Assembly (NCBI GenBank): GCA_937873665.1
Contig: CALMYW010000231.1
Coordinates: 1-29,766, forward strand
Direction: 5' to 3'
Length of the DNA: 29,766 nt
Source of the DNA: an uncultured Sphingorhabdus sp.
Lineage (GTDB): Bacteria; Pseudomonadota; Alphaproteobacteria; Sphingomonadales; Sphingomonadaceae
Part shown: piece by piece, positions 710 to 24,621 of the stretch
Layout of the letters: every line of letters starts with the position of its first letter
Position numbering within the stretch: the stretch's first letter is position 1
The notes under the pieces: model-generated
The model's database searches: none
The model's input: the letters and a program-made list of their open reading frames with translations, nothing else
What the model was told of the DNA's origin: nothing
Program-made: the position numbers and the translations under genes

Positions 710-2884
710 CTATCCGTTCCCTTTGATCGAACGACAAAGGTCGGTTAAGCCATTCGCGTCCAAGCGTGCTGATAGCGCATCTTTTTGCAGCAAATCCTCG
801 GTCAAGTAAGGATGGAATTTCTCAAACAACAGGTTCGGCGAATGCGCAAATAGGTGCACCTCTTTGCCATCTGCCAGGGCCGAAAGTGCGTCGATCAACT
901 GCGGGCTTTCACCCTTCCCGAACACTTCAAGAAACCCATCGTGTGTCTGCACTGTAAAGCCGCTCGCCCGAAGGGCGAGTGCCAAAGTCGTTGTCCGAAC
1001 TGAACCCGTTTTCGTCGCTATGACAGCAGCGTTGTCGCTGAGCTGGGCAATCGTTCCGGGGTCAAATAGCAGTTGGCCGTAATTGCTGCGTGCCTCGTCG
1101 AGTAGCTCCAGCGCAGTCGCATCAAGGTAGATCGGGCGCTTTTGTCCCTCCAGAACATCGAACATACGCTGGATCACCCGGTCATGGATGTTACCAGGGT
1201 CGCCCCCAAAGATGGGCGGCACTCCGGCTTTCGCCGGTGCAACCAGGATGACACGATCCCGGTCGAGAACTTCTTGCACCAACCAGCGCCTGCCCGAAAA
1301 AATGAGAAGCATTCCGGGCGCAATCATGTTGTCGATGGGGAGTGTTCCAAGCTCCTTACCGCCGGAAATCAGCCGGTATTCCTCGGGGGTCTGGAACACG
1401 GCATAGAAGCTATAGTGCTCAACCAGCTTTTCGCCATTGGCACCGAGCAGCAAGAGTCCATCACTGGTTTGCTCAATCAGCGCGACCTCAGGTTGCCCGA
1501 GTGCTCGCAAAACATCCAGGAACAGCTGTGTATCGACCTGACGGAATGGCCCGATCTGGCAAAGAATCCCGTAGAGTTGCTGCGCACGTATTCCGCCTCG
1601 CTCGGCGATCACCGAGAGGATTTGGTGAACGAGGGTCGAAAGGTGAAGGGCCTCGCGTGGCGGCGGTTCACACCAGCCTTCCAAAAGCAATTCGATCATC
1701 GCAATGGCCCGCACCATCCCAAGGCGAAGACAGTCCGAAAAATTGCTGGTAGGCGTGAGCTTCGCCTCGACTGCGTATTGCCGAAGGATGGCTGGCTTGC
1801 CCGGTCGCCGCCCTGATCGACCAAGCCTTTGCCTCAGCGATGCGACGCTGAACGGTGCGCCAATCTGGCCGACACAGGTCACATCGCCAATGTCGATTCC
1901 CAATTCCAGCGTGGAAGTGCAGATGGCAGTCGTCGGCGCAGTACCATCTTTCAGGCGGCGTTCGACGAAGTCTCGATGCTCGCGCGATAGGCTGGCGTGG
2001 TGAGGGTAAAACTCCTGCGGCAAATGTTCCTTTTCGCAAAGTGCGCGCAACCGATCTGAGTAGATTTCAACGGCCTGACGCGCACCGCCAAAGACAAGAT
2101 TGTCGCTGCCTCTCAGATGTTCGAATAGGTGCTGCGAAATGGCATCCGTCGCTGAAGGGCTTTCATCGTCCTTGTCGCCAGCAACGTAGCCACGGAGCTG
2201 AAGCTGCAATTCGGCTGATCCGCCCTCGGCAATGACCTGTTCGACTTCATCAGGGCTGTCAGGACGAAGATAAGCCTTCGCCAGCTCCATATCTCCGAGT
2301 GTGGCCGACAAACCGACCCGGCGAATAGGTCTCTTTAGAGCAATTTCGAGGCGCGTGAGAAGCGAACGCATCTGGATGCCGCGCTCACTGTCGAGGACCG
2401 AATGCAATTCATCGAGAATGACTGCGCGCGTTGCGCCAAACAGCCTCGGAATCTCCAATCCGCGTCGAATGAATAGCGCTTCAAGTGACTCCGGGGTGAT
2501 TAGCAGCACGCCCCCCGGTCGCTTGGTAGCCTTAGCCTTCACCGATGACGAAACGTCGCCATGCCACGGCGTGATAGGCAAGTCTGTATCGCGACAGATG
2601 TCTTCAAGTCGCCGCGCCTGATCGGTGATGAGCGCCTTTAGCGGTGCGACATACAGAACATCAAATCCAGTTTCCTCACTGGGTTCATCGAGCACTTGGG
2701 ACAGTAGCGGGAGAAATGCCGCTTCAGTCTTGCCTCCGGCGGTGCTGGCAGCGACAATCAGGTCACGATTGCCGTCCATAAGCACGTGCGTTGCGCGCGC
2801 CTGAATATCGCGCAATTCCTTCCAGCCTTGCTGACGTATCCATTTCTGGATTGGTCGAGCCAGCTTGTCGAATGCCGCGCTCAC
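710..2884 (-). CDS. Lhr/BrxHI-like superfamily 2 DEAD/DEAH-box helicase, last gene of the defence operon
   Basis: This 724-aa protein has all the helicase landmarks: Gln28 upstream of motif I, Walker A around A49-G-G-K-T53, motif II as D158-E-L-H161, motif III S193-A-T, motif V near T323-STLELGIDIGDV, and motif VI Q352-RLGRSGR. It should be an ATP-driven nucleic-acid translocase. The C-terminal half (about 380-724) has no catalytic motif I can name. It starts with GTG, and the GTGA overlaps the TGA stop of the BrxD-like ATPase gene by 4 nt, so the two are translationally coupled. In type 2 BREX a BrxD ATPase is paired with an Lhr-like helicase, BrxHI. Here the pair is present without PglX, PglZ or other BREX core genes. 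The helicase call is firm; the exact subfamily is less certain. Confidence 0.88.
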   Translation of the reverse strand: MSAAFDKLARPIQKWIRQQGWKELRDIQARATHVLMDGNRDLIVAASTAGGKTEAAFLPLLSQVLDEPSEETGFDVLYVAPLKALITDQARRLEDICRDTDLPITPWHGDVSSSVKAKATKRPGGVLLITPESLEALFIRRGLEIPRLFGATRAVILDELHSVLDSERGIQMRSLLTRLEIALKRPIRRVGLSATLGDMELAKAYLRPDSPDEVEQVIAEGGSAELQLQLRGYVAGDKDDESPSATDAISQHLFEHLRGSDNLVFGGARQAVEIYSDRLRALCEKEHLPQEFYPHHASLSREHRDFVERRLKDGTAPTTAICTSTLELGIDIGDVTCVGQIGAPFSVASLRQRLGRSGRRPGKPAILRQYAVEAKLTPTSNFSDCLRLGMVRAIAMIELLLEGWCEPPPREALHLSTLVHQILSVIAERGGIRAQQLYGILCQIGPFRQVDTQLFLDVLRALGQPEVALIEQTSDGLLLLGANGEKLVEHYSFYAVFQTPEEYRLISGGKELGTLPIDNMIAPGMLLIFSGRRWLVQEVLDRDRVILVAPAKAGVPPIFGGDPGNIHDRVIQRMFDVLEGQKRPIYLDATALELLDEARSNYGQLLFDPGTIAQLSDNAAVIATKTGSVRTTTLALALRASGFTVQTHDGFLEVFGKGESPQLIDALSALADGKEVHLFAHSPNLLFEKFHPYLTEDLLQKDALSARLDANGLTDLCRSIKGNG

Positions 2885-4185
2885 AGTCGGAAGCTGGCTA
2901 GCTCGTCGCTCTCGGGAACAGCGCCAACGCTCTCATCCACGTCGTTCATGTCGTCACCAGAATCCTCCGCCACGTCGAGTTCTTCGATGAGGTCCGACCA
3001 TTCGACGCCGGGGTTCTGTTCGAGCACCGCCAGAAGATTCACGAATGCCGTGACCGTGTTCCGGGGGGTTCTGAAATAGGCCTCCCCGATCCTGCCCGAG
3101 CAGTGTGCCATAAACGCTTCCAAGGCGTTGTCGGGCAGGATTGCTTCATCGCCCTGCATAACGGCGCGAATGTTGGCTAGGAGCACGAACAGATCTTCAG
3201 GCGTAAGGCTGGCTAGTCGAATGATCGGCCCGGAAAGATCGACCAGTCCATCACGCGCAAAAGTGTTCTCTGCGAGGCGAGACTGGAGTGCCTCATAGCT
3301 GTAGAGGCCGCGCCGCGTATTCATGAGGAATTCCGGCGTTCCTCCCATGAGGAACCCAAGGTTCTCCGCGCTTCCTTGCAGAACGTCGTTCAGGATGCGC
3401 AGGATTTGCTCATAGTTGGCATTGCGGGCTTGCGATGATGTCAGCTTGTAAAGGTTGACCATCTCGTCAAGGCCAACGAGCAGGCCCTTGTAGCCCGCTT
3501 CACAAACAAATGCCGACATCAGTTTGAGGTGATCGTAGACGCTGGCGTCATTGACGATTGTGCGAACACCCAGAGCCTTGCGAGCATCGGTTTTCGTAGC
3601 AAATTCGCCGCGCAGCCATCGAATTGCTGCCGATTTCAGTTCTTCATCGCCGGTTTCATGTCCCTCCCAATACCGGCGGATGACCTGCGCGAAGTCGAAG
3701 CCTCCTGTCAGCTCCTCGAAATGGGCAAGGCGCTGGCAAATGATGTCATCTGTCGATTGTTCTTGCGCCTCGGCATCGTGCTGGGCCTGGCTGACAAAGC
3801 GTTCGACAACATTCGACAATGCACCACCATCTGGCTTGGTCCGGGTGGCAAGATTTCGCGCCATCTCCGCGTAGAGGCCCCGTGCTTGCCCGCCGGTCGC
3901 GTGGATGCGTCGATCCGGGGCAAGGTCGGCAAACATGACGACCAGTCCCTTTTCGAGCGCTACAAGCCGGATCAGGTTCATGAAGAAGGTCTTGCCGGAG
4001 CCATACTCGCCGATGATGAAACGAATGGCTGAACCGCCATCAGCGATCCGGTCCATGTCCTTGACGAGTTCCTCGATCTCACGCGCTCGTCCGACCTGGA
4101 TGTGCCGAAGCCCCAATTTGGGAACAACACCGGCGCGTAGCGCCTGAACGATGGCGTCGCGTTCGCGCGGTTTCAGTCTCGACAT
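2881..4185 (-). CDS. BrxD-like (DUF2791 family) P-loop ATPase
   Basis: This 434-aa protein carries Walker A G59-EYGSGKT66 and a hydrophobic strand ending in D240-E241 (Walker B), typical of AAA+/STAND-like ATPases. The arrangement, with a late FRTPRNTVTAFVNLL segment at about 371-385, matches the BREX ATP-binding protein BrxD/DUF2791 family as I know it. Residues about 404-428 are strongly acidic and may be a docking tail. ATG is preceded by AAGGGGG at 8 nt. Only 3 nt separate it from the stop of the TerB-N gene upstream, and its own stop overlaps the helicase start, so the three genes form one translational unit. It probably loads or controls the neighbouring helicase; no nuclease motif is visible. 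Confidence 0.82.
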   Translation of the reverse strand: MSRLKPRERDAIVQALRAGVVPKLGLRHIQVGRAREIEELVKDMDRIADGGSAIRFIIGEYGSGKTFFMNLIRLVALEKGLVVMFADLAPDRRIHATGGQARGLYAEMARNLATRTKPDGGALSNVVERFVSQAQHDAEAQEQSTDDIICQRLAHFEELTGGFDFAQVIRRYWEGHETGDEELKSAAIRWLRGEFATKTDARKALGVRTIVNDASVYDHLKLMSAFVCEAGYKGLLVGLDEMVNLYKLTSSQARNANYEQILRILNDVLQGSAENLGFLMGGTPEFLMNTRRGLYSYEALQSRLAENTFARDGLVDLSGPIIRLASLTPEDLFVLLANIRAVMQGDEAILPDNALEAFMAHCSGRIGEAYFRTPRNTVTAFVNLLAVLEQNPGVEWSDLIEELDVAEDSGDDMNDVDESVGAVPESDELASFRL

Positions 4186-4188
4186 GAA

Positions 4189-6708
4189 TTAATCCCCCTT
4201 CGCCATCTCGGCTCTCAACGTATCGGCTATGTCCGGCGATACGTCATATCCGTCATATTCATCGAGCAATGCTTCATCGAACTTATCGAAAGCCCACTCA
4301 TTGACTACCTCAAGCGCGCCAGAGGGCATGAGCCCTTGCTTACCGGCGATCTCGTCAAACTCTTCGTCAGTCCAATGTTCGCGCTGGATTATCTGCTCCA
4401 CAAGCATCGCGTGCTTGGGATCGAGGCCAGCCATTGATGATGGAAGAGCATGTGCTGCGGTGGCCTCGTCGCTCACGTCTTCGTCGGTCGAGAAAATCTC
4501 GCCCAGAACGCTTGAAACGCGCTCGGTGTCATTTCGGATGGCGGCAATACGCGCCGCATCAAGGGAAGCCGCCTTTGCCTTTGGTTCATCGGGGATTTGT
4601 TCGCCGGGGACTTCCGCTTCGGCGGCCTTAACCCGGACAGGGCCATCGGCAACGTCTCCGGCATGAAGGTCAGCGTAGACGTGGCCAGCATCGATTCCCA
4701 ATGCCTTGTAAATTTTCTCAATACTGGCGACTTCATCGGACTGAATAACGCCATCAGCATGGGCAATCGCGACAACTGCCGCGCGCAAAGCGAGATGATG
4801 CTCTGCATCTGCCTCTTTCAGCTTACTGCGCAGCCATGACATGTCCGGCGGAACATCGAGATACCATTCGAGGTTGGCGTAAAGTCGCTTTCGTTCTAGC
4901 TCTGTCAGCCCTTTAGTTGCCTCGACCTTGTTGCGGAGGGCTCGGCGCTCTGCTTCCACGATCTTACTGTCGGCATGTGCCACGAAGGTCGCTAGTGCCA
5001 ATTCGAACAACTCTGATCGATATGCCGGGGAGACATCCTCCAGTTGCTCGACCGTCACGCCCAGCTCGAAGATCACGACCGGTTCGTCAATCTTCGGCCC
5101 ACGCAGAGAAAATCTCGGGTCAGGAGCCATGCCGAATCCGATCCGTGCGAGTGCGTCCGCTGCGCCAGTCAAGTTCCGTTTGCCGAGCTTCTCTGGTGTT
5201 ACTCCTTCCAGCCGCGAGATCACATCAACCGCCGGAATCAACCCACCCGCTGTAACTTGCTCGTGGGCCCAGGTTTTTAGTTCTTCCAATTCACCTGAAG
5301 GGAAAAGGCTCCAAAGCTCAGCAGGTAGCAGCGCCTGCGCTTCGATAGTCCCTCGGCCATTAGGATTTCGCCCAAGGTATCGGCTGAATTTATCCAGTTC
5401 ATCCATTGCCTCATCTGCGATCTTTTGCGCTTTCTGCACTGGGGACCGCAAATCGGACACATCAGGGATTGCTACATCTCCGCCATCTCCCGCCGTGAGA
5501 TTAACGGAGCAATTGAACTCGCTGGATGCCGCACGATAGTCCATTTTCAACAACTTACGAGGCGTTCGAACCTTTAAGCCATCAGGGTACAGCGCGTCGA
5601 ACTTCAGTTTGAAAAGTGCCTTGAATTCGTCACCGCAACGCTCAGCTGGAGTGCGAAGGCGTCGCTCTGGGTGGCAATGCAGCCAGAGATGCAGCCACTC
5701 GGCATCAAAGGCTTTGCCTTCGGCGATCATGCCGCCGAGTGCGAACTTCAGCGAAAATGGCAAATCCCAGCTTCGGTTCTCAAGGATTGTCTGCTTAAGT
5801 GTCGCATCGTCCAAGGAGATGCCGCCCATCGCCATGATACGCGCGATGTCGAGGAACTCGCCGAGATACCGTTGGGCGGAGTAGTTATCGGCGAAAAGAA
5901 CCTTCAGGCGTTCCACCTCCGCAACTATTTCCTGCTTCTCATCGTCGGGTGGTTGGTCGATCAGAAACCTGCGCTCCAGACCATAGAAGAACAGGAACAT
6001 GTAGCCGGGGTTGATCGTCCCATCTTGGCGACCACCAGCCAGCCAGTCGAGATAGGTGGCCCTGCACACGGCAGAAATGCTCGAATACCCTGGCCAATAT
6101 GGCATGTTATCGCCATTCTTGTCCGACCCCACCCGCGCGACGGATAACGATGGATCGATGTAGGCTCGACAGCTCTCACCATAGTAGGATGAGCCAATAC
6201 GTGGCGGTTTGCCCACAAAGATCATCCCATCGATCGTGCGACCTGCGATAGTGACCGATTGACCTTTTCGCAGCCAACCTTGCGACCTTGCCGGTGAATT
6301 TTGATGTGAGCGTTCTGGTTGAGACTGCTGATCAAGAACAGCACTGGACAGGCCTTGCCGTGCCAGTCTTCCAGCTGATCGGTGCTCCACCGCTGCTTCA
6401 AGATCGGCGTGCGCTTGTCGCCCTGCTCCAATAAGCTCGGCATAATTCTGCTTTGGCTGGTAGGGCTTTGGTTGGCTGAGTTGCTCCTCTTCGCTCGTCA
6501 GAGCTACGCGTCTTGGGGCTTCGAGTCCGTCGCTCTGGGCGATCCGCGTCTCTCGGTGTTTTTCGTGCCACCATACAAGAAATGCAGGGGTGACAAACGC
6601 GAATAGCATTTGCATCCCAATAGATACATTTGGCATCGCAATGGCAACCACGACCATGCAGACGAAGTAGAAGAAGAAATACTTGATTGCCCAGCGAACC
6701 AATCTCAA
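4189..6708 (-). CDS. Membrane-anchored TerB-N / TerB / TerB-C domain protein
   Basis: The protein is 839 aa from the TTG at 6708, chosen because AGGGGG lies 8 nt upstream, the same spacing as for the next gene; another TTG at 6726 would add 6 residues. Two hydrophobic helices (about 7-25 and 32-47) should anchor it in the inner membrane. A TerB-N domain follows (about 150-365, with MPYWPGYSSIS and YLDWLAGGR motifs), then a TerB domain (about 560-685) with two AHAD...E acidic motifs that could bind metal, and a TerB-C-like tail (about 715-835). TerB-N/TerB-C proteins are known from predicted stress and defence systems next to ATPases and helicases, as here. It heads the third module, after an approximately 110-nt gap from druE. 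Its biochemical role is not known; a scaffold or sensor is my inference. Confidence 0.82.
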   Translation of the reverse strand: MRLVRWAIKYFFFYFVCMVVVAIAMPNVSIGMQMLFAFVTPAFLVWWHEKHRETRIAQSDGLEAPRRVALTSEEEQLSQPKPYQPKQNYAELIGAGRQAHADLEAAVEHRSAGRLARQGLSSAVLDQQSQPERSHQNSPARSQGWLRKGQSVTIAGRTIDGMIFVGKPPRIGSSYYGESCRAYIDPSLSVARVGSDKNGDNMPYWPGYSSISAVCRATYLDWLAGGRQDGTINPGYMFLFFYGLERRFLIDQPPDDEKQEIVAEVERLKVLFADNYSAQRYLGEFLDIARIMAMGGISLDDATLKQTILENRSWDLPFSLKFALGGMIAEGKAFDAEWLHLWLHCHPERRLRTPAERCGDEFKALFKLKFDALYPDGLKVRTPRKLLKMDYRAASSEFNCSVNLTAGDGGDVAIPDVSDLRSPVQKAQKIADEAMDELDKFSRYLGRNPNGRGTIEAQALLPAELWSLFPSGELEELKTWAHEQVTAGGLIPAVDVISRLEGVTPEKLGKRNLTGAADALARIGFGMAPDPRFSLRGPKIDEPVVIFELGVTVEQLEDVSPAYRSELFELALATFVAHADSKIVEAERRALRNKVEATKGLTELERKRLYANLEWYLDVPPDMSWLRSKLKEADAEHHLALRAAVVAIAHADGVIQSDEVASIEKIYKALGIDAGHVYADLHAGDVADGPVRVKAAEAEVPGEQIPDEPKAKAASLDAARIAAIRNDTERVSSVLGEIFSTDEDVSDEATAAHALPSSMAGLDPKHAMLVEQIIQREHWTDEEFDEIAGKQGLMPSGALEVVNEWAFDKFDEALLDEYDGYDVSPDIADTLRAEMAKGD

Positions 6709-6821
6709 GAACCTAACCCCCTGCAATCAGATGAAATCTTGATCAATCGGATCTACTTTCCATTTTTAAACAAAAAATGAGCAATGCAATGTCCGAGCAT
6801 AGAAATTTCTATATCCATGTA
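6709..6821 (-). promoter_or_regulatory. Gap between druE and the TerB module: AT-rich with a 14-bp perfect palindrome
   Basis: This is one of two larger gaps inside the super-operon. It contains the perfect palindrome ATAGAAATTTCTAT at 6799-6812 and, further downstream on the minus strand, a TTGCAT followed by an A/T-rich TTTAAAAAT stretch. That could be a weak internal promoter with an operator for the third module. There is no GC-rich hairpin plus T-run, so read-through from druE is also expected. The promoter is a suggestion from composition only. Confidence 0.3.
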
Positions 6822-9800
6822 TCATATTCTGGCCACTGCGTAGTAACTCTCTCCCACACCAAAGACGGCAGCGGTTGAGCGAATAAGCTCGCCGACCTGC
6901 ACCGCAGGCGCTGCACGAAAGTCATGCCGCGGCGAACTGCCCGCAATTCGCCAGTATCCGAATCCCTGGTCGAGCAGGATCAGAACCTTCTGACCATCGG
7001 CATATTCTAGCTCAAGCTTGCGGCCATGGTTCGAATTCTCCATGATCTGAAGTTCGACATCGAGGCCAAACTTTTCGCCCAATAGCTCAGCGACTTCCGC
7101 TCGGTCGCCTTCATACTCCCAGTCATGGAAGATCTGATGGGGTGGCCGATCCTTCTTCAGTGGCTGGACCAAGATATCAACTTCGACCGGACTATTCGCC
7201 TGCAGGTCAGCGGATAGAGCTTCGCACGTCCGCAGAAAGAGGAGCATCGGTAGAGGCGCATTGAGATAACGGTCGGTGTAGGTGATCCGCAAAAGACTGC
7301 CGGGCTTCCAAACACCAGCCGCTTCCATCTGCTGCTTCAGTTTCGAGCCAAAGCGTTTGCCAAATTGGCCAACCGGGCATTGCCCGAAACCTTGCATCAG
7401 TTCGACCTGATCACCAGCCGCAACCTGTCGCTCCAGATCTTCAGGGTTGATCGGGCTGTAGGCGGTGGGGCCGCTGAGAGTGCCGGCAACGACAGCATGC
7501 GTCTCACCCAAGCCCCAGCGCTCCCCCGGCTGCGCCGCGTTCGCATCGCGTGAAAAGAACCCTGTGGTACGATCAGTCGAGATCAATTCGGCCAGGCGTT
7601 TGCTCTCGAAGGGGGCGTCTTCTCCTTTACCCAGGGCCAACGAAAATTCGAAACGCACCGAGGCATCGCGCAAAAAGCGCCGTTCGACCTCTTCGAGCTT
7701 ATCAAAGGAACTCGGATCAAGCACGAGAGTCACCGGAACGCCGCGCGCTGAGGCGGCAGAAAAGAACGTGCGCATTTTGGTCGAAGTCAGCTCTGCCAGA
7801 TCGAACACGGTCGGCAAAAAGACGGAAATGCTGTCTCCGCTTCGCGCTCTCAGAAGAAGTGTGTTTGCCGCGTCATTGATTGCCCTGGCATCGGGGACTG
7901 CACGATCTTCCTGCGGCAGTTCAGCATTTGTCTCAAGAAACGCCTGGACTGCGAGCAGAGCAGACCGCCGGTCGAGACGACCCTGCTGCTTGTAGAGATC
8001 GGCAGCAAGGACGCAGGCCGAACACCCCATCTCGCATTCCTTGGGGCAATCGAGGACGCGGGCCGCTCGTTCGAAGACATGATAGATATCATCGAAAAGT
8101 CTCGGAGCGTATCCGGCACCTCCAGATGCCTCATCGAAGATGTAGACCGACGGCACTCTGCGACCGAGCATGCCGTCTCGAGCTGCCACCGAAATCCCAA
8201 GCTCGCGCGGCTCAATTCCAAGCCAGCGCGCAAGACTCTCGCGCACGGCTGCGCTGAGTGCCCAGGCCGCACCGTCACTCTCCAGCCCAGGCAATTGCAG
8301 CTCTACCACATCGGTTAGAACTTCATGACCCAGCGCTAGAGCGCTCGTGATCGCATACCCTTCGTCATTGCCCGGACAGCGGTCAATCGCCTTTCGGTCC
8401 CTCGGGGTGAGCGGCCGATGGTCTTTGAGAGCGTCTGTCCCAGCGTCCCCAGCGCGACCACACTCCAGGCAAATCTCGTAACCCTGGTCTTTGGGGCCAC
8501 GCGAATGATGGTAGATGTAGCCTTCATGCGAAGCGCGGATCCGGCCCGTTTCAGGCTGCAGCATGGGTTGCCAAAGGGCATCACCGACACTGACCTTCGG
8601 AGACTTGGGTTCGATGTAGACAGCCTGATCGGTGTCGGCATGCGGCTGCGCGTTCCAGTCGACGCGGAACCCGGCCGGTTCAAGAAACTGCTCAATGGTA
8701 ATGCTGCGCTCGCCGCAATGGGCACACTGGTCAGGCATCTGGTGATCGCTGCCCGCCCCACCACAATGGTCGCACCACCAGGCCCAACGAAGGTTCTGCG
8801 GCTCCCGCTGGCCACTGTCGATCGGGCTCAACCAATTGAGGGTGACCCCGGCCGATTTCCAAACCAGCCCGTCTACGACGACCTCTGCCCCTGGGGCATA
8901 TTCCCGAATGGCGATATCGGCGTTGCGCGTCGGGCATTCATAGCGCCGATCACGCGCGCCTTCCTCTTCCGAACGATTACGCTCCTGCGCCTTCTGCGTC
9001 TCGGCACACAGGGTATCAAACGGGACAACTGATGTCGGAAAACCACTTCCAGGGATAAGCGAGCGATTGGCGAGCTCCTTCAAGAGGAACTCTTTGCACA
9101 AGCGCCGCGCCTGAAACTCGATCGCCTTCTTTGCCGGCCCTTCGAGCGCGTCCGAGTCTTCCTTTAGGCGCTGCCATGTACGACGGAAATTCGCAGCTTC
9201 CTGCCCAAACATCTCCGCCGTATGCCCCCGGATTTCGGTGTCGTATTCGAGACCTGTCCCCCTGAGGAGCCGCAGCAAACCTTGTTCGGTTGCGGATGCC
9301 GTAGTTGGTAGATCGAGCCATTCGCAAAAGGCATCCACGGGAGCGAGACCTTCGAAAGGACGAAGGTCAGCGCGACAGCCGAAGAAATCCCCGGTCTTGG
9401 TCCGGGCAAACTCCCCCTCAACCTCGCGAAACCATTGGGCGAGCAGATAGGCGTTCGCATGACGCTGTGCGATCCGATCTGAATCAAGCGATACGCGCGG
9501 CGAGGCGAGTTTACGGCGCAAATAGCCTGCAGGATCGGCAAACGTCTCGAGATCGAGAGGCGTGTTGCGGGCGATTGTGAGACTTGTCGAGAAGCCCTGT
9601 CCGCGGCGGCCTGCCCGACCGGCACGCTGATTGTAGTTGGCGATCGAGGGTGGAACATTGGTCATCAGCACGGCTTCGATCGAGCCGATGTCGACACCCA
9701 TTTCCATGGTGGTCGAGCAGGCGAGCAGGTTGATATCGCCTTCCTTGAATTGCTCCTCGAACTCCCGCAGTCGGTGCGGGGGCTGCTGGGCACTGTGTTC

Positions 9801-16077: not shown

Positions 16078-16175
16078 CCCCGGCACCTCTCACAATCACG
16101 GATGCCAGACAACACCCTCACTTACCTCAACATCTCTGAACGTTACTTCATAATCAATGATGAAGGTCAGGTTTT

Positions 16176-19100
16176 TCAGTGCATTGCCCGAGAGGTCGAA
16201 ATCGAGCCCTCGTAAAAAGCATTCACGACGCAAGACCAACGCGCGTTCATGACGCCGTCAATACCCCGTCCAAGATCCCAGATGACGGTATCGCCATTCT
16301 CCAATTTAGCTCTCACGAAACGATCGTGCAGGTCGCCGCCCGACCGCCGTGACTTCTGTGCGAGGTGGAGGGGAACCGAGGCCAGCATACGGTTCCACCG
16401 ATCTTCAAGGTCCTGGCGCTGGTCACGCGTGCTTTCAGGGTCACGAGTCTGCACGGAATCGGCGTCGAATGTCACGATTTGCACGGCCGCGATTTCCGAA
16501 GCGAGCTGTCCAAAGCGACTGATGAAATTGATGAGGCGCCCGCGAGCCTGCTCGTCAGCGCAACAATAGGGGTCCTGGATTTCGAGCCGTTCAATTCGCG
16601 CGTCGCGCGCGTACTGCTCGAAAATCGTCCAGTCGCGTTGTCCATATTGTTCAAACACGACCCGCTGAACGAAAGGAACGCGCGCTTCAGCCGCCTCGAC
16701 GGGAGTACGCACAGAGAGAATGGGGCGCCGGTTTTTGCGCTCGGCATTGCTCGATGCTGTCTCGCCAGGATCAGAGTGAGACTGCGAGCGCGCCGCTTCT
16801 TCTAATCTTGGTTCTACCGCGTGCTCCGCAGCCGGATCAGGGTTTGCGGAACTCGCTGTGTTGTCGCCCGCGGGTCCGCGGGAGCGAGCAATCTCCTCGT
16901 CTCCCGTCGGCTCTTCGATTTCCGGCTGTCCGACTGGTGGGGCAGGCGGTTCCGCTTGTCGAATACTGGCGCTGTAATCGGTGTCTTGAATGTCCGCTGG
17001 CGCCTGCCCGGCGGCGGCATACGCACTACTTCGATCAAGGTTCTCTGCAGGGCGCCCGTCGAGCACATCGGAAAGCAGGTCTTCTACATCGCGATCGCTC
17101 TCCGGCGGCATGAGCAGACCCCGGCTCAGCGAACGCTTGCGCTCCATGAGGGCGTCGAGACGCTGGTCGAAGCTTGAAGGTCCGATCGCTTCGTCCGGAT
17201 GGACAGCCATCGGAATGTGAATGGTCACTGGCCTGGTCTGACCGATCCGGTAGGCGCGGTCCGTTGCCTGGTCTTCAACGGCAGGATTCCACCAGCGGGA
17301 CAGATGGATCACATTGTTTGCAGCGGTGATCGTGAGCCCCACGCCGCCAGCCTTGGGAGACAGGATGAGAACGTCGAATGAAGCCGGCGAACTCTGAAAG
17401 GCAGTCACCATCTCCTGGCGCTTATGGCCCGCAACCTTCCCGCTGATGCACATCGGGCGGCGCTCGAGCGAGAAGCGCTCCTGAATTGCCATCGCGAGGA
17501 AGGCCTGCATCTCGAGATCTTCGCAGAATAGTAGAGTCTTTTCGCCGCGCTGCTTGACCTCCTCAAGGATTTCGAAGGTCTTCTTCAGCCGTGCAGATTG
17601 CCCGATGTACTCGTCGATGTTCGAAACTCCACGCGGCGGCGACGGGTGGAGCGATGTACCGCGCAGCATATGCAGCACTTTGAGCATCGCACCCTGTTCG
17701 CCGCTTTCCCGTAGCGCTCGCGCTCTGGCCAACACGAGGTCGTAGGCCTGCGCTTGCGCGGTCGGCATCTCGACCGGATATTTGCGGGCCTTCTTCTCCG
17801 GCAGCCCGGTCAGGATTTCGTCCTTCATCCGACGCAGCATGAAAGGCGGAAGTTCTTTGTCGCGCTCGATCAGACGGTGCTGGAGATCGCCAAGGCGCTC
17901 GAGATCGTTCGCCGGGAAACTGCTCTCGAATTCCCGGCTCGAGCCAAGAAAACCTGGATAGACCGTATCGGCAATCGACCACAGGTCCTGCAACCGGTTC
18001 TCGACCGGTGTGCCCGTCATAGCGATCTGGATTGTGCCGTTCAGCGCCTTTGCGGCGCGGGTCATCTGGCTGGCAGGATTCTTGAGCTTCTGGATTTCAT
18101 CGTAGACGATTGCAGCGAACGGAATGCGCGCGAAGCTCATGTGATAATCGCGCATTGTTTCGTAGGTCGTCAGAACGATTCCGGCGTCGTTCCATTCGGA
18201 CACGTCGAGACGCGATGTTCCCCCGCGAATGTCGCTCCCAGCCTCGAGACGGAAATTGCGCAGGTTGGCGCCGAACGCCTCGACAACAGGCCCCATGAGA
18301 TCTGCCTCGATGTGCTGCGAAAGCTCGGCTTGCCAATTCCGCAGAAGACCTGTTGGCGCGACAATCAAGACGGGCTTCTGATGAAGCGTTTTGCTGCGCA
18401 GCCAGAGAAGGAACATGAGCGCCTGGAAGGTCTTTCCGAGCCCCATATCGTCGGCGAGCAAGACGCCCGGCATGCGGCGCTCCCAGGCCTCGGCAAACCA
18501 AGCGAACGCCTGCACCTGGTGAGGCTTGGGTTCCGATCTCAGTCCCTTGGGCAGCTCGGGAGCATCGAAATCCTGCACTTCGGCGTCGGGACGAGGCAGC
18601 CGCGCATAGTCCAGCTGCTCGAAATTCTCTCCGACCTGAAGGAAGAAGATATCGACGCTCTCGCGTTCGGTTCTGTCCGAGGCGCGTCCCTCGACCTCAT
18701 CAGCGATCCCACGTTCGAGGTCTGCAATTGCTCGCGCGGCCTGCAGGGTTGCAGGCGTCGCGGGGATGCTTTCGTCGCGCCAGGCGATCGTTTCCTTGCC
18801 TGCATCAATCGCTGTCTCGACTTCGCTTGCGATCGTTTCAGCTTCACCTGGAGCCAACTCGACATGACGCGCATCGGGCGGATCCCCGATCCGCAATCCA
18901 AACCCTTCGGGCAGCCAGCTGTTCGGCTTGGGCTTGATCCAGGGTAGGACCGGCTTTTGCCAGACCTCGATCCCGCTGACTCGCTCGGAAAACTGCTGTG
19001 TCTCGATGAAGAGACGATCAGCGGCCTCGTCATCGTCTGCCGCGTCTAGCTTGAGCTCTTCACGCAGGACACGTTGCGGCGAACGCAGAAATTCGCGTTT

Positions 19101-19991
19101 TTCCTGGGAGGTGCCCACCTGCTTTGCGCGCACGATGTCGAGGGCTTTGCCCAGCATCGGGTCGAGGAAAAGGAGCGTTCCGTCGGAAAGCAGATAGCTT
19201 CGCCGCCCGCCGTCCTGACCCCGGAACCGGCGCTGAAAATGCTGATTGTCCTGCGGGGTAAGCAGCGACGCTTCTTCTTCGTCGACCAGGTCACCCTCAG
19301 CGCTCTCGCTTACGTTTCTCGAGAAGAGGACGGGGTCGAAGTCGAAACGTCCATGGTCGGTCTTTGCGTTAAGTGAAAAGTTGGCGGCATAGGCAATCCG
19401 GACACGCTCGAGAAAGCCATCCGCCTCGATGCCGGTGCCGATGTCGTCTCCGAGCGTCGAACGAAGCTCGGCAAAGGCAGCACGGCGCAGATCGGGATCA
19501 TCAGCCGCGTTGACTGCAAGTGCGGCCTGGAAGGCCGAGTAGATCGGTTCGGGAATTCGTCCGACACGCCCGCCCTCTCGCAGACGTGCGCCGGCGATGT
19601 CGGCTCGAACCGGCATGCCACCGCGGCGAACCCATTTCGTATCGACTTTGATCGTTCCTTCAGCGAGCGAACCTCCCGAGTTGAGCTGAAGGGTCATCGA
19701 CGTGACCGGAGGAAGACCGAGGGCGAAGGCGTCAGCCTCATCGAGCCGTGCAACGATCTGCGGTGGAAGGACTATGCCTTCCGCCTCCTCGCTGATCTGA
19801 CCATCATCATCGAGAGCTCGAGCCAGCGCCAGAGCGGCCTGCCCAGCTTCGGGGGCTACTCTGGGCCACTCTGAGACCGGCACAATTTCGCTTGATGCTC
19901 GCCGGAAGAGCCCACCTGGCTGTTCGCGGAGAAGCGCAATCGTCTCACCGCCGAACTCGTTCTGTGTGGCAATGAACTTGGTCGTTACCAT
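16176..19991 (-). CDS. zorD: ZorD, SNF2-family helicase of type I Zorya, with a C-terminal MIT_C-like extension
   Basis: This protein has 1271 aa. Residues 1-480 form a long N-terminal region of the Zorya type. The SNF2 motor covers about 485-960: Walker A D515-MGLGKT521, motif II D631-E-I-Q634, TGTP 659-662, and motif VI Q908-ATDRAYRIGQ918. A Pro/Glu/Ser/Ala-rich linker (about 980-1085) leads to a last domain (about 1095-1265) with IQDPY (1138-1142), LHDRF (1221-1225) and LGRGID (1240-1245). This pattern resembles the phospholipase-D-like MIT_C domain. ZorD is the ATP-dependent DNA-acting effector recruited in Zorya defence. The start ATG overlaps the zorC stop by 7 nt. The motor call is secure; the name zorD rests on the zorABC context, and the C-terminal domain call is pattern-based. 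Confidence 0.88.
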   Translation of the reverse strand: MVTTKFIATQNEFGGETIALLREQPGGLFRRASSEIVPVSEWPRVAPEAGQAALALARALDDDGQISEEAEGIVLPPQIVARLDEADAFALGLPPVTSMTLQLNSGGSLAEGTIKVDTKWVRRGGMPVRADIAGARLREGGRVGRIPEPIYSAFQAALAVNAADDPDLRRAAFAELRSTLGDDIGTGIEADGFLERVRIAYAANFSLNAKTDHGRFDFDPVLFSRNVSESAEGDLVDEEEASLLTPQDNQHFQRRFRGQDGGRRSYLLSDGTLLFLDPMLGKALDIVRAKQVGTSQEKREFLRSPQRVLREELKLDAADDDEAADRLFIETQQFSERVSGIEVWQKPVLPWIKPKPNSWLPEGFGLRIGDPPDARHVELAPGEAETIASEVETAIDAGKETIAWRDESIPATPATLQAARAIADLERGIADEVEGRASDRTERESVDIFFLQVGENFEQLDYARLPRPDAEVQDFDAPELPKGLRSEPKPHQVQAFAWFAEAWERRMPGVLLADDMGLGKTFQALMFLLWLRSKTLHQKPVLIVAPTGLLRNWQAELSQHIEADLMGPVVEAFGANLRNFRLEAGSDIRGGTSRLDVSEWNDAGIVLTTYETMRDYHMSFARIPFAAIVYDEIQKLKNPASQMTRAAKALNGTIQIAMTGTPVENRLQDLWSIADTVYPGFLGSSREFESSFPANDLERLGDLQHRLIERDKELPPFMLRRMKDEILTGLPEKKARKYPVEMPTAQAQAYDLVLARARALRESGEQGAMLKVLHMLRGTSLHPSPPRGVSNIDEYIGQSARLKKTFEILEEVKQRGEKTLLFCEDLEMQAFLAMAIQERFSLERRPMCISGKVAGHKRQEMVTAFQSSPASFDVLILSPKAGGVGLTITAANNVIHLSRWWNPAVEDQATDRAYRIGQTRPVTIHIPMAVHPDEAIGPSSFDQRLDALMERKRSLSRGLLMPPESDRDVEDLLSDVLDGRPAENLDRSSAYAAAGQAPADIQDTDYSASIRQAEPPAPPVGQPEIEEPTGDEEIARSRGPAGDNTASSANPDPAAEHAVEPRLEEAARSQSHSDPGETASSNAERKNRRPILSVRTPVEAAEARVPFVQRVVFEQYGQRDWTIFEQYARDARIERLEIQDPYCCADEQARGRLINFISRFGQLASEIAAVQIVTFDADSVQTRDPESTRDQRQDLEDRWNRMLASVPLHLAQKSRRSGGDLHDRFVRAKLENGDTVIWDLGRGIDGVMNARWSCVVNAFYEGSISTSRAMH

Positions 19992-21391
19992 CGATCATTC
20001 CAGTTGCGCCCCCGGCCTCTCCCAAAGCGGGGATGCGCGATTGATGTCCGGCGATGGATGATACCGGCGAACTTGCCCTCCCATCCAGGACTCGCGGGGA
20101 CATGGGACTCATATTCGAAATCCGACCGTCCGCTGGTGGTTCGCAGCTTCCCGCCGTCGTAGACCTTTGCGTAGAGTTTCGGAGCTCCGGGATCGGTGTC
20201 ACTCCAGAAGCGGCAAGATCCGTTATCGCTCCACTCTGATATGCGCAGGTCGCCTATCTGCATGATGATGGACGAAGACGAGGCAGGACCGCCCCGGATG
20301 ATGCCATATTCAGGGCGTTCACCACTTTGACGAATGAGATCCTCGATCCTGTTGCGCGCCCGAATGCCTAAAGCGGGCCAGGCATCGCTGACGAGACCTT
20401 CATCGAGGTAGGCCATCCAGAATTTCTCGCGCTGTGCCCACTGATCCGGCCGATCCGTGGTCTTTGCGATGGCGCGGAAGAACTCGCGCATGGCGACTTC
20501 GGTAAGCCAGCGCTTGAACACCTGGGTGACCTCGCGCGCACGTTCTTCACCGATCGACTCGGCGAGCGATCGCACGATCCTGTCCCACCGGGTACGTTGG
20601 AGACGCGGATCACCCACCTGATCGAGCAGAAACTCGGAAATTGCCTTTCGATGCTCGGGTTCGGGCTTGCTCCTTATCCAGGGTTCTAGCAGGGCGCGGA
20701 CAACCAGTTCCAACTGTCCTGCCTGCGCTTCTGTATCAAACATACGCAGGATACTGCGCTGCGGGCCGACTGCTTCTGCAGGCTGAAGCTCTGCGGTTGC
20801 CTTACAGGTCTCGGCGAAAGTTGCCTGACCAAACCCGCTCGCCGCAAGGTTTGCGCCAAGGCCTGTCTCGCGCATCAAAAGGGAAATGCCGTCTGCATCG
20901 CGCGTAACAAAATCGCGTGCCACTTTCGCTGGTCCTATCTGCGGCTTGAACAGATCCCACCGTGCGCCACGCTCGCGCCACGCCCAGTCATGCCGACCGG
21001 CAGCGCGGGATGCAGCTTCTGCTAGCATCGGCATGATCGAGCGGTCTATCGGGAAATAGGTAAGGTAGCCATCGATCACGGCCTGATCGGAACTGCGCCG
21101 ATGATCGACATCGGCCCGTTCGAGCGCCGCCACGCCCAGCTCATCGAATTCCGGGTCACACCATGCGCCGCGCAGGACCCTGTTGAGTTGAAACCGCGGT
21201 AACCCGTTTGCGCCGGTATCGGCCGCTCCTCGCAGGAATGGCTTAAGTTCAATGACGGGCTCTGCTTCGCCCACACATGCATCGAGCTTTGCCAATTGTC
21301 GCTGCAACTCAGGCTGTGTCGTCGGAGGTTTAGCCAGTCCAGCCGATGCCAAGGCCTCCATTCTCGCGATTGCAGACCGCAGCGAACTCAT
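19985..21391 (-). CDS. zorC: ZorC, EH-signature domain protein of type I Zorya
   Basis: This 468-aa soluble protein follows zorB with an ATGA overlap and is itself overlapped by zorD. A REKFWMAYL segment (321-329) and the later block with GDLRISEW (about 380-387), CRFW (393-396) and the His at 430 match the conserved Glu/His layout of the EH_Signature family that defines ZorC. The first 300 residues are helical and poorly conserved to my eye. In type I Zorya, ZorC works with ZorD on invading DNA after the ZorAB membrane complex senses infection. Its presence, and the absence of the HNH nuclease ZorE, make this type I rather than type II. Confidence 0.85.
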   Translation of the reverse strand: MSSLRSAIARMEALASAGLAKPPTTQPELQRQLAKLDACVGEAEPVIELKPFLRGAADTGANGLPRFQLNRVLRGAWCDPEFDELGVAALERADVDHRRSSDQAVIDGYLTYFPIDRSIMPMLAEAASRAAGRHDWAWRERGARWDLFKPQIGPAKVARDFVTRDADGISLLMRETGLGANLAASGFGQATFAETCKATAELQPAEAVGPQRSILRMFDTEAQAGQLELVVRALLEPWIRSKPEPEHRKAISEFLLDQVGDPRLQRTRWDRIVRSLAESIGEERAREVTQVFKRWLTEVAMREFFRAIAKTTDRPDQWAQREKFWMAYLDEGLVSDAWPALGIRARNRIEDLIRQSGERPEYGIIRGGPASSSSIIMQIGDLRISEWSDNGSCRFWSDTDPGAPKLYAKVYDGGKLRTTSGRSDFEYESHVPASPGWEGKFAGIIHRRTSIAHPRFGRGRGRNWNDRW

Positions 21392-22116
21392 TGCTCCTGC
21401 CTCAAAATGTCGCGGTCGAGGCCAGCGCTTGGCGTCGTCATCAGGAAGCGCAAGTCGATCCGACGATTACGCTTCTTGGCTTCTTCGGAGTCTCCACGAT
21501 CGACGGGACGGTCAGGACCATAGCCACTCAGACTGAGGATCGGTGCTGAGCCGTCTTCGCTGGCAGGTTTATTGAGAAACCCGTTGAGCGCAGGCTGACT
21601 ACGTTGGAGCGACTTAAACGTCGTCTCCGCCCTTCTGACGGAAAGGCCGTAATTATCCATACCGCCCGACATGACATCGGAGTCTGTGTGCCCCTCGACG
21701 AACACTGCATCGATAAGATGCTTGCTCCGCTCCCCCTCGCAAAGGTCGGAAGTGGTGTAGCAAGGAAGTACCTCAACCATGGCGCTTGCAACTTTGCTGA
21801 TGGCGGCCTGCCCCCTCTCCGTCAGTTCCCATTGGCCTTTGTCGAACAGGACATCGTCGGGGAGCCTTAGAACTCCTGTCTTTGTGTCGATTTCGACCTG
21901 GAGCCCTCGGTCTTTCAAGGATTGCTGCAAATCGTTGAGGATCTCGGCGCGGGTCCTGTTTGCGCCGGTCAGCTCCTCGGTCTTGGTCTGCAGATTGAGG
22001 GCAAAGTAGGCTAACAGGATGATGAAAATAAGAAGCAGGCCGACCATCATGTCCGTCATGGACATGAAATAGCTTTCGCCCTCCTCAGGCGGCTTCCGGC
22101 GAACCACGCCTTCCAT
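21388..22116 (-). CDS. zorB: ZorB, MotB/OmpA-like peptidoglycan-binding subunit of Zorya
   Basis: This 242-aa protein has a short cytoplasmic N-terminus and one membrane helix at about 23-42. Asp22 lies at the start of the helix, in SMTDMMVG, the position of the proton-carrying aspartate of MotB/ExbD-type stators. The periplasmic part is an OmpA/MotB domain (about 83-225), with EGHTDSD at 141-147, GYGPDRPV at 198-205 and RNRRIDLRF at 216-224, which should bind peptidoglycan. The start is an ATG in a TAATG junction with zorA, so translation is coupled and subunit ratios may be set there. Two cysteines (C119, C126) in the periplasmic domain could form a disulfide. Confidence 0.92.
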   Translation of the reverse strand: MEGVVRRKPPEEGESYFMSMTDMMVGLLLIFIILLAYFALNLQTKTEELTGANRTRAEILNDLQQSLKDRGLQVEIDTKTGVLRLPDDVLFDKGQWELTERGQAAISKVASAMVEVLPCYTTSDLCEGERSKHLIDAVFVEGHTDSDVMSGGMDNYGLSVRRAETTFKSLQRSQPALNGFLNKPASEDGSAPILSLSGYGPDRPVDRGDSEEAKKRNRRIDLRFLMTTPSAGLDRDILRQEQ

Positions 22117-24041
22117 TATTCAGCGGCTTCCCTGTTCTGGTTTGCAAGGATGCCGGCAAGTTCCTCGACGGTATCCCGCAGGGTCGTGAGCGGTTCAAGT
22201 GCGCCGGCGAGCTGCGCCACACCATCGCCCAGAGCCTTGTCGATCTGGCCGACCCGTTCGTTGAGGTTCGACGCATGGTTGCCGGCAGCATCCGAGATCT
22301 TCTCGATTGCGTCACCAAGAGCGCGGTCCACATCTTCGAAGCGAGCACGATATTCCGACCATGCGGAAGAGGCCGCACTCGCAGTCTCATTCAGCGCTGC
22401 GGCAAGCTGACGCATTTCGTCACGAGCGCTCTCGGATGACTGCGCATTTCGGGAAACGATAGTCTCCACCGATTTGACTGCTTCGGCTATCGAGACTGCC
22501 GACTGGCGTACAGGCGCGGTTGCCGCTTCAACATCGTTGGCAACCGTTCCGAACGCCGTCGCCAGATCGCTGGAGCGAGCAGCAACTTGCTCGATCGCTC
22601 GCACGTGATCTCCGATAGCACTTTGTGCGGTCGAGAGACGGTCCGCAGATAAAGAGATAGCATCGCCCGCATCCTTCATGCTGCCAACAAGTGGGCCGCC
22701 GGTCTGGTTGAACCGTTCGACGAACTCGGAAAATGACTTTTCCATTGCCTCCTGGCCGATCCGAGCCGCGTCATTCGCCGCGCGTGCCGAGGCTTCACCC
22801 ATCTGACTGGCCGCCGAGGCGAGACCGGATTTCATATCGTCGAGCGTATTGCCCAGATTGCTCAGCAACTCGTCCATCCGCTGTCTGGCAAGCTCGCTTG
22901 CCTGCTCGTTTTCTTCGCGCATGCGGTCCGCTACGACGCCGAAATTGCGGTTGAGCTCGCCAAATGCTGACCGCATCTCTTCCGAAGCCTGGCCAAAGCG
23001 CCTGACAGCTTCCTCGATCTGGCGGTCAGCTTCGCCGGTCTGTTTTTCGATACGTTCGGACATCGTGGCCATCGAGACGGTCATTGCGCCAATGGCATCT
23101 GCGAGGCCCGCCATCTCTGCACCGGCACTTGAAGCGATCGCGTCGCGGACGGCTTCACCCCCGCCACCGCTGATCTTGTCGATGCCCTGCTGGATCGACC
23201 CTAGGTGCGTGATCATGGGCGCCATCTGCTTTTCCAAGGCCCCGTCGAGGGCTGCGGCAAGCTGTTCGGAAAAGGTGCGAAGTGCCGGTGTCTGCTCTTT
23301 GAGTTGTGCCAGCTGATCGCTCGCGATCCGTTGCGGCGGCAGATAAGCCATTCCGTGCTCGAGTTTGTCACACAGCATGGACAGCCCATCATTGATGCGC
23401 TTGCCGAAGAGGTAGTCATAGGATCGAAGGACGATGGAAGCCACGATGCCCCCCACAGAGGCCCAGAACTTCGCTCCCGCTACCTTCATGAGATCATTGA
23501 GCCGCTCCTGCATCGCATCGACACCGCCGCTGAAGTCGAGTGTCGATAGAGCTGCGATGATGCCCAGGAAGGTGATCAACAGGCCGATGGCGATAAAGAT
23601 ATTCGCAAACCAGTTCAGTCCGCGATGACGGTCGCCAAGATTGACGAAGAAGTGTTCGGGACGAGCGGAGTTCTGGAGAACATCGGCCGAGGGATCGACG
23701 ATCGTTTCGCGATATTCTTCCCAGGTTCTGCGGAGCGGCAGCGCCTCAGCGTCATTCGCCTCCATCATCTGGGCGTCGATATCATTGAAGCGGCGCGCGA
23801 ACTCGAGGCGCGCTTGGTCGACATCTGCGGTACTGCCGCCGGTTATCTCATCAAGCAGGCGGACGCGGGCTTCGATCGCCTCAGCGAGAGGAGCGTGATA
23901 TTGGCGCTTGTATCGGTAAGCTATTGCTAGAGCAGTTCCGATCAGCACGATTGCCAGAAACGCCGCCATCGCATCGCCAATGAGCGGAATTTTGGTGAAA
24001 AAGTAGATCAGCCCATGACCGAGCGATTCGGTAATTTCCAC
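22116..24041 (-). CDS. zorA: ZorA, MotA/ExbB-like membrane channel subunit with a long cytoplasmic tail
   Basis: I start this gene at GTG 24041 (641 aa), which follows AGGGGG by 4 nt. A longer frame to 24191 adds 50 Cys/Arg/Pro-rich residues unlike the family. Membrane helices lie at about 24-43, 142-165 and 189-207; the last two, with the segments between, form the MotA/TolQ/ExbB channel. From about residue 240 to the end runs an approximately 400-residue Ala/Glu/Ser-rich helical tail, the hallmark of ZorA, which is thought to carry the infection signal from the envelope to the cytoplasmic effectors. It is the first gene of the super-operon. The leader upstream is long (about 150 nt from my best promoter guess). 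Confidence 0.9.
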   Translation of the reverse strand: MEITESLGHGLIYFFTKIPLIGDAMAAFLAIVLIGTALAIAYRYKRQYHAPLAEAIEARVRLLDEITGGSTADVDQARLEFARRFNDIDAQMMEANDAEALPLRRTWEEYRETIVDPSADVLQNSARPEHFFVNLGDRHRGLNWFANIFIAIGLLITFLGIIAALSTLDFSGGVDAMQERLNDLMKVAGAKFWASVGGIVASIVLRSYDYLFGKRINDGLSMLCDKLEHGMAYLPPQRIASDQLAQLKEQTPALRTFSEQLAAALDGALEKQMAPMITHLGSIQQGIDKISGGGGEAVRDAIASSAGAEMAGLADAIGAMTVSMATMSERIEKQTGEADRQIEEAVRRFGQASEEMRSAFGELNRNFGVVADRMREENEQASELARQRMDELLSNLGNTLDDMKSGLASAASQMGEASARAANDAARIGQEAMEKSFSEFVERFNQTGGPLVGSMKDAGDAISLSADRLSTAQSAIGDHVRAIEQVAARSSDLATAFGTVANDVEAATAPVRQSAVSIAEAVKSVETIVSRNAQSSESARDEMRQLAAALNETASAASSAWSEYRARFEDVDRALGDAIEKISDAAGNHASNLNERVGQIDKALGDGVAQLAGALEPLTTLRDTVEELAGILANQNREAAE

Positions 24042-24194
24042 ACAGCCCCCTGAAGCCCGTAAAGATGACGGGCCCCTACGAACCGTTGCCGAAGCAGGCC
24101 AAGCGTGCGTGATGCAACCGGGCGAAGAAACCCTAAGTAGGAAGGACGGTATCGAACCGCAACGTTGACTGCAAGAGAGTTCTCGACACAACTA

Positions 24195-24204
24195 CAGATA
24201 TCTG
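24195..24204. repeat. Perfect 10-bp palindrome upstream of zorA
   Basis: CAGATATCTG reads the same on both strands and lies at the expected start of transcription for the candidate zorA promoter. It could be an operator half-pair or chance in AT-rich DNA. Confidence 0.3.
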
Positions 24205-24214
24205 ATTAATTTCA

Positions 24215-24228
24215 GAACATATAAGAAC
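24215..24228 (-). promoter_or_regulatory. GTTC-N6-GTTC element upstream of zorA, a spacing variant of the LexA box
   Basis: On the minus strand this reads GTTCTTATATGTTC. It differs from the canonical box at 24607-24621 (GTTCTTGTTATGTTC) essentially by a one-base deletion and one substitution in the spacer. It lies between the -35-like TTGATT and the -10-like ATTAAT of the best zorA promoter candidate. Alphaproteobacterial LexA prefers a 7-nt spacer, so a 6-nt version may bind weakly, bind a different S24-type regulator, or not function. Confidence 0.4.
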
Positions 24229-24407
24229 AAATCAAAATATATCTGGCGAAAATTATCAATACCCTCCTCATTAACAAAATATTTAAGACACAATATCAAA
24301 ACATATCTATATATCTTATAGCATTGTTCCAACCTATAGATTTGAATTAGAGTAATATATTTTCTGGTTTACATCCACACATAAAGAAATTTGCCTTAGA
24401 TCTGGGT

Positions 24408-24606: not shown

Positions 24607-24621
24607 GTTCTTGTTATGTTC
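24607..24621 (+). promoter_or_regulatory. LexA (SOS) box GTTC-N7-GTTC
   Basis: GTTCTTGTTATGTTC is an exact match to the direct-repeat LexA operator of alphaproteobacteria. It sits between the divergent 57-aa gene and the S24 regulator gene, 25 nt and 66 nt from their starts, so it could control both. A second exact box occurs at 26550-26564, making chance less likely. Confidence 0.72.

Follow-up and report, generated by a model that had tools for sequence, protein, structure and literature searches.

Zorya I and Druantia III as a recurrent defence pair, with Shango as a separate third cassette, on a conjugative element family found mostly in Sphingomonadales

The window analysed here, namely the 29,766-nucleotide (nt) stretch at positions 1 to 29,766 of contig CALMYW010000231.1 of an uncultured Sphingorhabdus sp. 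(assembly GCA_937873665.1), carries the genes of three defence systems in a row. Here, I argue that the Zorya type I and Druantia type III genes (zorABCD-druHE) probably form a lasting two-system cassette, lodged in a fixed slot beside a divergent S24 repressor-like gene and the trwC gene of a conjugative element, that the Shango genes (sngABC) behind them are a separate cassette in a third place, and that the paired systems would act jointly, one early and one late, on shared DNA ends.

On the minus strand, from 24041 to 710, nine open and co-directional reading frames lie where the original prediction had placed them, and their grouping into three modules was borne out, with 89 nt between zorD and druH and 95 nt between druE and sngA (113 nt if sngA starts at TTG 6708). 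PADLOC and Pfam assign the modules to the three systems as follows (aa, amino acids; bit scores are those of the PADLOC models):

22116..24041, minus strand: zorA, 641 aa from GTG 24041, MotA/ExbB-like with a long tail; PDLC00604 (ZorA1), 1195 bits
21388..22116, minus strand: zorB, 242 aa, one transmembrane segment (hydropathy) and an OmpA-like domain (Pfam OmpA); PDLC00610 (ZorB1), 277 bits
19985..21391, minus strand: zorC, 468 aa, EH_Signature (PF15611); PDLC00620 (ZorC1), 816 bits
16176..19991, minus strand: zorD, 1271 aa, SNF2 helicase (PF00176); PDLC00634 (ZorD1), 1988 bits
12766..16086, minus strand: druH of Druantia III, 1106 aa; PDLC00040 (DruH3), 2360 bits
6822..12785, minus strand: druE, about 1987 aa, YprA-like DEAH helicase with an MZB domain (PF00270/PF00271/PF09369); PDLC00037 (DruE3), 2078 bits
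4189..6726, minus strand: sngA, 845 aa from TTG 6726 or 839 aa from TTG 6708; PDLC03958, 327 bits
2881..4185, minus strand: sngB, 434 aa, BrxC/D-like ATPase (PF10923); PDLC03959, 594 bits
710..2884, minus strand: sngC, 724 aa, DEAD/DEAH helicase; PDLC03960, 902 bits

Inside the modules the genes overlap or nearly touch (zorA/B by 1 nt, zorB/C 4 nt, zorC/D 7 nt, and druH/druE about 20 nt, counted from the likely druE start); sngA and sngB stand 3 nt apart, and sngB and sngC overlap by 4 nt. The longest frames of zorA and druE open earlier, at TTG 24191 and ATG 12920 respectively; relatives favour the starts at 24041 (zorA of the nearest genome, G001, also encodes 641 aa) and at about 12785 (DruE relatives measure about 1985-1989 aa). 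The gene content is that of the named systems: the motor proteins ZorA and ZorB with ZorC (EH signature) and the SNF2 helicase ZorD for Zorya type I; DruH with DruE, the latter bearing the helicase motifs TGSGKTE and DEAH, for Druantia type III; and, in one operon-like set, a TerB protein, an ATPase and a helicase for Shango. SngA comprises an N-terminal hydrophobic segment (hydropathy) followed by TerB_N, TerB and TerB_C (PF13208/PF05099/PF15615). The third module had been described beforehand as a nameless TerB/BrxD/helicase set; its domains were read correctly, and all three PADLOC models give it the missing name, Shango, which rules out both a new system of that make-up and a piece of BREX.

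The pairing of Zorya I with Druantia III recurs in other genomes. In a DruE scan of genome contigs, covering the best 80 of 537 relatives (79 loci, with flanks of at most 10 kb), Zorya I lies directly upstream of DruE in five loci (L007, L009, L010, L013, L019), directly downstream in two (L012, L021) and on the opposite strand in one (L078), and SngA was found in none of the 79. ZorD-like matches with no ZorA-C alongside were not counted as Zorya I (L011, L028, L036, L040, L058, a second one in L010, and L084, which also has a weak ZorB). The seven co-directional loci, together with the window, G001, G226, G291 and G111, make 12 co-directional pairs, only Zorya I being counted; nine have Zorya first and three Druantia first, and the gap between the systems is 21-194 nt in 11 of them; in L010, where an extra gene intervenes, it is 941 nt.

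The Zorya-first order is constant in all eight members of the main DruE clade whose context could be judged (in L008 it is too short). On the whole DruE tree the linkage requires four changes, gain and loss being indistinguishable (FastTree, 83 rows: the window, G001, G226, G291, G111 and every one of the 79 loci except L018, a split reading frame below the score cut; in 21 rows the flanks do not reach far enough for a judgement). A case in point is G111, whose Zorya is close to that of the window (ZorD 72%) and whose Druantia is far from it (DruE 42%), the two being joined in reverse order. The G111 DruE groups as sister to the L012 protein and the G111 ZorD stands beside the main clade, the ZorD tree being a quick IQ-TREE run without mixture model and both trees carrying long-branch warnings. 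Because G111 joins a near Zorya to a far Druantia and is placed differently by the two trees, the pairing appears to have been made more than once.

Two genome samples were also searched, one of 298 genomes at family level and one of 385 at class level, ZorD being counted in both at E <= 1e-80, a threshold which may take in a few related SNF2 helicases. Within the family sample, ZorD was found in 15 genomes, DruH in 6 and SngA in 10. Zorya and Druantia coincide in five of the six Druantia genomes (expected 0.30; Fisher 9.2e-7, relatedness ignored), being adjacent in G001, G226, G291 and G111 and on different contigs in G250; Druantia and Shango coincide once, in G001 (expected 0.20; p 0.19, relatedness likewise ignored). 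The class sample holds SngA in 6 genomes and ZorD in 11, and DruH, sought in its 14 hit genomes besides G001, was found as one fragment; one SngA match there (G428) has neither sngB nor sngC and is left out of the Shango count.

As to other carriers, none of 16 IMG/VR loci showed ZorA, ZorB or ZorC; DruH and DruE are both present in L087, and in four loci a DruE-like helicase has a ZorD-like one close by. Carriage of the pair on plasmids was considered and rejected: DruH matched four plasmid records (24-26% identity) and ZorD (E <= 1e-80) four other ones.

What stands behind druE, on the other hand, varies from copy to copy. Shango takes this place in the window and HsdMSR with GmrSD in G001, G291 and L007; G226 carries a different HsdM/HsdS/GmrSD/HsdR set, L010 an MzaB-like/SNF2 set, L009 insertion sequence (IS) genes of the IS21 type, and L013 TraG/TraH. 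No second array of Zorya I, Druantia III and Shango was found among the 79 DruE loci or in the genome samples. The original prediction held that type I Zorya is hard-wired here to Druantia III and to the third system. Its first half stands, given the 12 co-directional pairs; its second half finds no support, in view of the absence of SngA from the stretches covered of all 79 loci, of the unlinked cassettes of G001 and of the other sets found in siblings, and the adjacency of all three modules, which it put forward as something to be looked for in other genomes, proved rare. Two features of the slot may be recorded in passing: in L010 (Erythrobacter sp. SD-21) a 284-aa gene of no Pfam match (L010:5866-6720) lies between zorD and druH, in the same direction and abutting the druH start; and in G226 a HipA-like gene on the opposite strand (L158:17597-18895) closes the cargo slot, with relatives of 83-93% in G001, G291, L007 and L010.

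The comparison with G001 separates the two cassettes most clearly. There, window positions 6834-24161 are matched at 94.2% in one block at 1.56 Mb, which breaks off where druE ends; behind it come an IS3-type gene, the type I restriction set HsdMSR and a GmrSD protein. Shango stands on the same contig at 37.8 kb (window 1-6427 at 94.8%), about 1.5 Mb away from the pair, in a locus that also matches the S24 side of the window (24457-26571 at 92.6%); between Shango and S24 lie a CBASS set (SMODS, HORMA, TRIP13-like, Cap17-like), an exonuclease and IS66. The S24 gene by the G001 Shango is 100% identical to that of the window and the one by the G001 Zorya-Druantia block only 61%, so the window would seem to combine the backbone and Shango of one element with a Zorya-Druantia cassette typical of another. 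Nearly the same pair (DruE 94-96%, ZorD 96-97%) occurs with and without Shango alongside. The homologies break off at two junctions:

6709..6833: druE-sngA junction; the longest match to a Shango homologue (G355) stops at 6708, an sngA start, and the matches of the pair's relatives stop at 6834
24162..24449: AT-rich junction; the pair homology ends at 24161, and homology on the S24 side begins at 24450 (G398) or 24457 (G001)

On the Shango side, the pair homology ends within the last druE codons, and neither junction sequence found a match in the loci compared. Around the druE-sngA spacer no promoter- or terminator-like match was seen, the consensus scan being uninformative, as it showed no promoter upstream of zorA either. 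In G001, the CBASS slot (L113:8022-15742) is followed by IS66 and by a PRiA4_ORF3 gene abutting a shortened sngA, whose frame begins near residue 100 and which has no hydrophobic segment. The same genome holds a second S24 copy 100% identical to that of the window (C1:1095531-1096172; L125, 1.10 Mb), perhaps in a third related element.

The cluster is defence cargo of a TrwC/TraG conjugative element family whose relatives are mostly found in Sphingomonadales. The parts of the window that belong to the carrier are these:

3..302, plus strand: end of a traG-like conjugation gene, its final 99 codons, matching the G001 protein at residues 802-900 (94%)
24408..24581, minus strand: small open reading frame of 57 aa, co-directional with zorA, helix-turn-helix-like by eye only
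24607..24621: an SOS-type box, GTTC-N7-GTTC, with the S24 gene on one side and the small frame on the other (motif scan)
24688..25332, plus strand: S24 repressor-like gene (PF00717), 214 aa, oriented divergently to the cargo; two 100% identical copies in G001
25433..26068, plus strand: gene of a DUF5818 protein, element backbone, also beside the identical S24 in G001
26572..29711, plus strand: IS66-type insertion (genes 26665-29177); G001 lacks it, its sequence being continuous from the 26571 side to the 29712 side

In its last 55 bases the window matches G001 directly behind the trwC relaxase gene, as far as the final 6 bases of trwC, so that trwC, itself outside the window, probably lies next door. 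The order TrwC, S24, zorA holds in all six other main-clade copies whose upstream side is covered: G001, G226, G291, G395 (Erythrobacteraceae bacterium Alg239-R51), G397 (Erythrobacter sp. SD-21) and G396 (Sphingobium indicum BiD32), the linkage in G396 being inferred, for S24 and the zorA start lie on one contig and the remaining pair on another; L013 begins inside zorD and is left out of this count.

The S24 protein has, by eye, a helix-turn-helix-like N-terminus, an Ala-Gly site and Ser/Lys residues, presumably those of self-cleaving repressors. Upstream of the S24 gene the box GTTC-N7-GTTC (GAAC-N7-GAAC on the opposite strand) is present in all ten regions, the window counted, two of which (G398, G399) are not proven to adjoin a pair; in the nine regions measured it lies 42-75 nt from the S24 start, and single-base shuffles show it in 1-3%. 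The motif alone is not rare in the window (two matches, a number reached by 24 of 100 shuffles), so its weight rests on the repeated position. The second match lies at 26550-26564 on the minus strand, directly before the IS66 insertion point. A small frame similar to that of the window is found on the cargo strand in eight of the nine intergenic regions checked, the window again counted. GAAC-N7-GAAC is given as the LexA site of alphaproteobacteria (PMC3091678).

How might the paired systems work together? Synergy between Zorya II and Druantia III is published (PMC13192584, PMC12458937) and requires intact RecBCD; DruH is described as the likely late sensor, which nicks DNA, and DruE as a helicase-nuclease acting on 3' single strands (PMC13192584). 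RecC, which is part of the hub on which the published synergy rests, was sought as PF04257 in the 11 genomes other than the window's own assembly that carry a Zorya I-Druantia III pair, completeness being stated for four of them. It was found in none, E. coli being the sole positive of 14 controls, and alphaproteobacterial AddA is present in all 11 (above the cut-off in ten, split over two contigs in one). Because RecC was not found and AddA was found in every one of these genomes, the published RecBCD-centred coupling, judged by gene content, could not apply unchanged in these hosts; if the pair synergises there, another end-processing enzyme would take the part of RecBCD, most likely AddAB.

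In the scheme that I propose, Zorya I would act early, its ZorAB motor sensing the envelope during injection and recruiting ZorCD to the DNA, and Druantia III late, DruH sensing late phage proteins and nicking, and DruE loading on 3' single strands. DNA ends would be processed in these hosts by AddAB, proposed here because RecC was not found, and the two systems would be kept together because both act on the same ends and intermediates; Shango would add an ATPase/helicase/TerB response of its own in parallel. A bolder form of this scheme can be put forward tentatively: a composite unit, assembled more than once and in both orders, may couple an early membrane-triggered attack to a late DruH/DruE attack via AddAB-processed ends, while being mobilised, and perhaps tuned to DNA damage, by a conjugative element with a CI/Cro-like switch.

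Several points weigh against a lasting and cooperating pair. No experiment shows synergy of type I Zorya with Druantia III. Zorya I usually occurs without Druantia III in these samples, ten of the 15 ZorD-bearing family genomes having no DruH match and only one of the ten class-level ZorD genomes other than G001 having a piece of it. The eight-member main clade may stem from one event carried by one element family, and the Fisher values take no account of relatedness. Some copies may be non-functional, and not every copy need work: the reading frame of druE in L009 breaks off near residue 1547, ahead of the IS21-type genes, and in G291 the DruH match crosses one TAG; besides, the 284-aa gene of L010 splits the two modules.

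A possible alternative is passive accumulation, that is, a cargo hotspot of a conjugative element collecting any cassette, with Zorya I and Druantia III made neighbours by chance and shared transport. That the slot or the element family also carries CBASS, HsdMSR, GmrSD, the SNF2/MzaB-like set and Shango speaks for it, as does the majority of Zorya I genomes without Druantia III; yet chance accumulation fits poorly with a pair order kept in eight of eight main-clade members while the third place changes, and with a pair that recurs in both orders and, in G111, with a different partner lineage. Somewhat doubtful, in my view, is that linkage serves shared regulation rather than shared chemistry, the pair standing under a CI/Cro-like switch made of the S24 gene and the small frame, so that defence rises when DNA damage inactivates the repressor. 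The divergent S24 gene, the box in ten of ten regions and the small frame on the cargo strand in eight of nine would suit such a switch. Yet the S24 gene also adjoins other cargo and therefore belongs to the backbone, some 366 nt, partly AT-rich, between the small frame and zorA leave room for an independent promoter, and neither G111 nor L021, whose pairs are in reverse order, showed an S24 match nearby in the stretches covered (L012 was not judged).

Very improbable is the nine-gene layered machine of the original prediction, in which Zorya I, Druantia III and Shango would be hard-wired into a single operon that has one membrane sensor and several DNA motors. The nine co-directional genes, their short gaps and the lack of promoter- or terminator-like matches around the druE-sngA spacer would suit it, the last point weakly for the reason given above, as would the hydrophobic N-terminus of SngA in the window's Shango lineage. 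As a conserved arrangement it is nonetheless largely refuted: SngA was found in none of the 79 DruE loci (flanks of at most 10 kb), the cassettes lie apart in G001, the third place is variable, the junction sequence has no match in the loci compared, and a Shango on the Sphingobium plasmid pTK1 has neither Zorya I nor Druantia III within 15 kb on each side. It is also unlikely that Shango has Zorya I, and not Druantia, as its true recurring partner, the two sharing divergent promoters and the window showing a rearranged form. In four of the 11 Shango loci of the family sample (G320, G254, G232, G314), Zorya I genes lie directly and divergently beside sngA, and ZorD is found in six of the ten Shango genomes (expected 0.50; p 1e-6, relatedness ignored). 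However, three of the four genomes are one close group, none of the five class-sample loci with sngA and sngB showed a Zorya (though only two of them, L171 and L172, cover several kb on the sngA side), and the window has a different orientation, with Druantia in between. PADLOC confirmed all four Zorya genes in G232 and ZorA/ZorB in G320, those of G254 and G314 being custom-profile matches only, weak for ZorA and ZorB; the association is a lead, not a result.

The two-system cassette with an exchangeable neighbour recalls the E. coli array of Zorya II, Druantia III and ARMADA II, already published as conserved (PMC12458937), in which Druantia III is reported to synergise with ARMADA II as well as with Zorya II, and in which, as in the window, three systems are adjacent on a mobile element with Zorya beside Druantia III (PMC12458937, PMC13192584). 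In contrast to that array, the Zorya of the window belongs to type I (with ZorC/ZorD and without ZorE), a swappable Shango takes the place of ARMADA II, the carrier is a TrwC/TraG conjugative element where the array has a phage-like satellite, and the 11 other pair genomes gave no RecC match. Taken singly, the modules resemble their described counterparts: the zorABCD order is that of Zorya type I (PMC11890865), with high PADLOC scores, the window's clade differing by having Druantia III directly behind; DruH3 and DruE3 are those of Druantia type III (PMC13192584), here in an alphaproteobacterial clade; and Shango (PMC10250203) likewise has a TerB protein, an ATPase and a helicase in one operon. 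In a literature search from which subscription papers largely fell out, the accessible text nowhere described Zorya I as adjoining Druantia III in alphaproteobacteria, or with Shango. Multi-system arrays as such being known, what would be new here is one with a fixed pair and a swappable third member. Do neighbouring defence systems cooperate, or do they just share their transport? On this general question the element family offers a natural experiment, since its third member is exchanged while the pair persists, and no RecC was detected in the hosts, so that the coupling of the pair becomes directly testable outside E. coli.

Some observations concern Shango itself. In a plasmid search 678 records matched SngA (60 of them listed), and many of the matches are distant and perhaps something other than Shango. 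In L115 (11798-16603), L121, L122 and L123 the Zorya I genes and Shango are neighbours whose starts face away from each other, and the literature passages found on Zorya and Shango hold no description of such a divergent association. The N-terminal segment of SngA (window 6570-6726; also L115, L116, L117, L118, L119 and L120) is strongly hydrophobic, with Kyte-Doolittle values of 2.2-3.0; unlike the SngA of the window's lineage, the distant SngA of G232, G254 and G314 are without it. Within the close sphingomonad Shango lineage, SngB is conserved at 97-99% and SngA at 71-93%.

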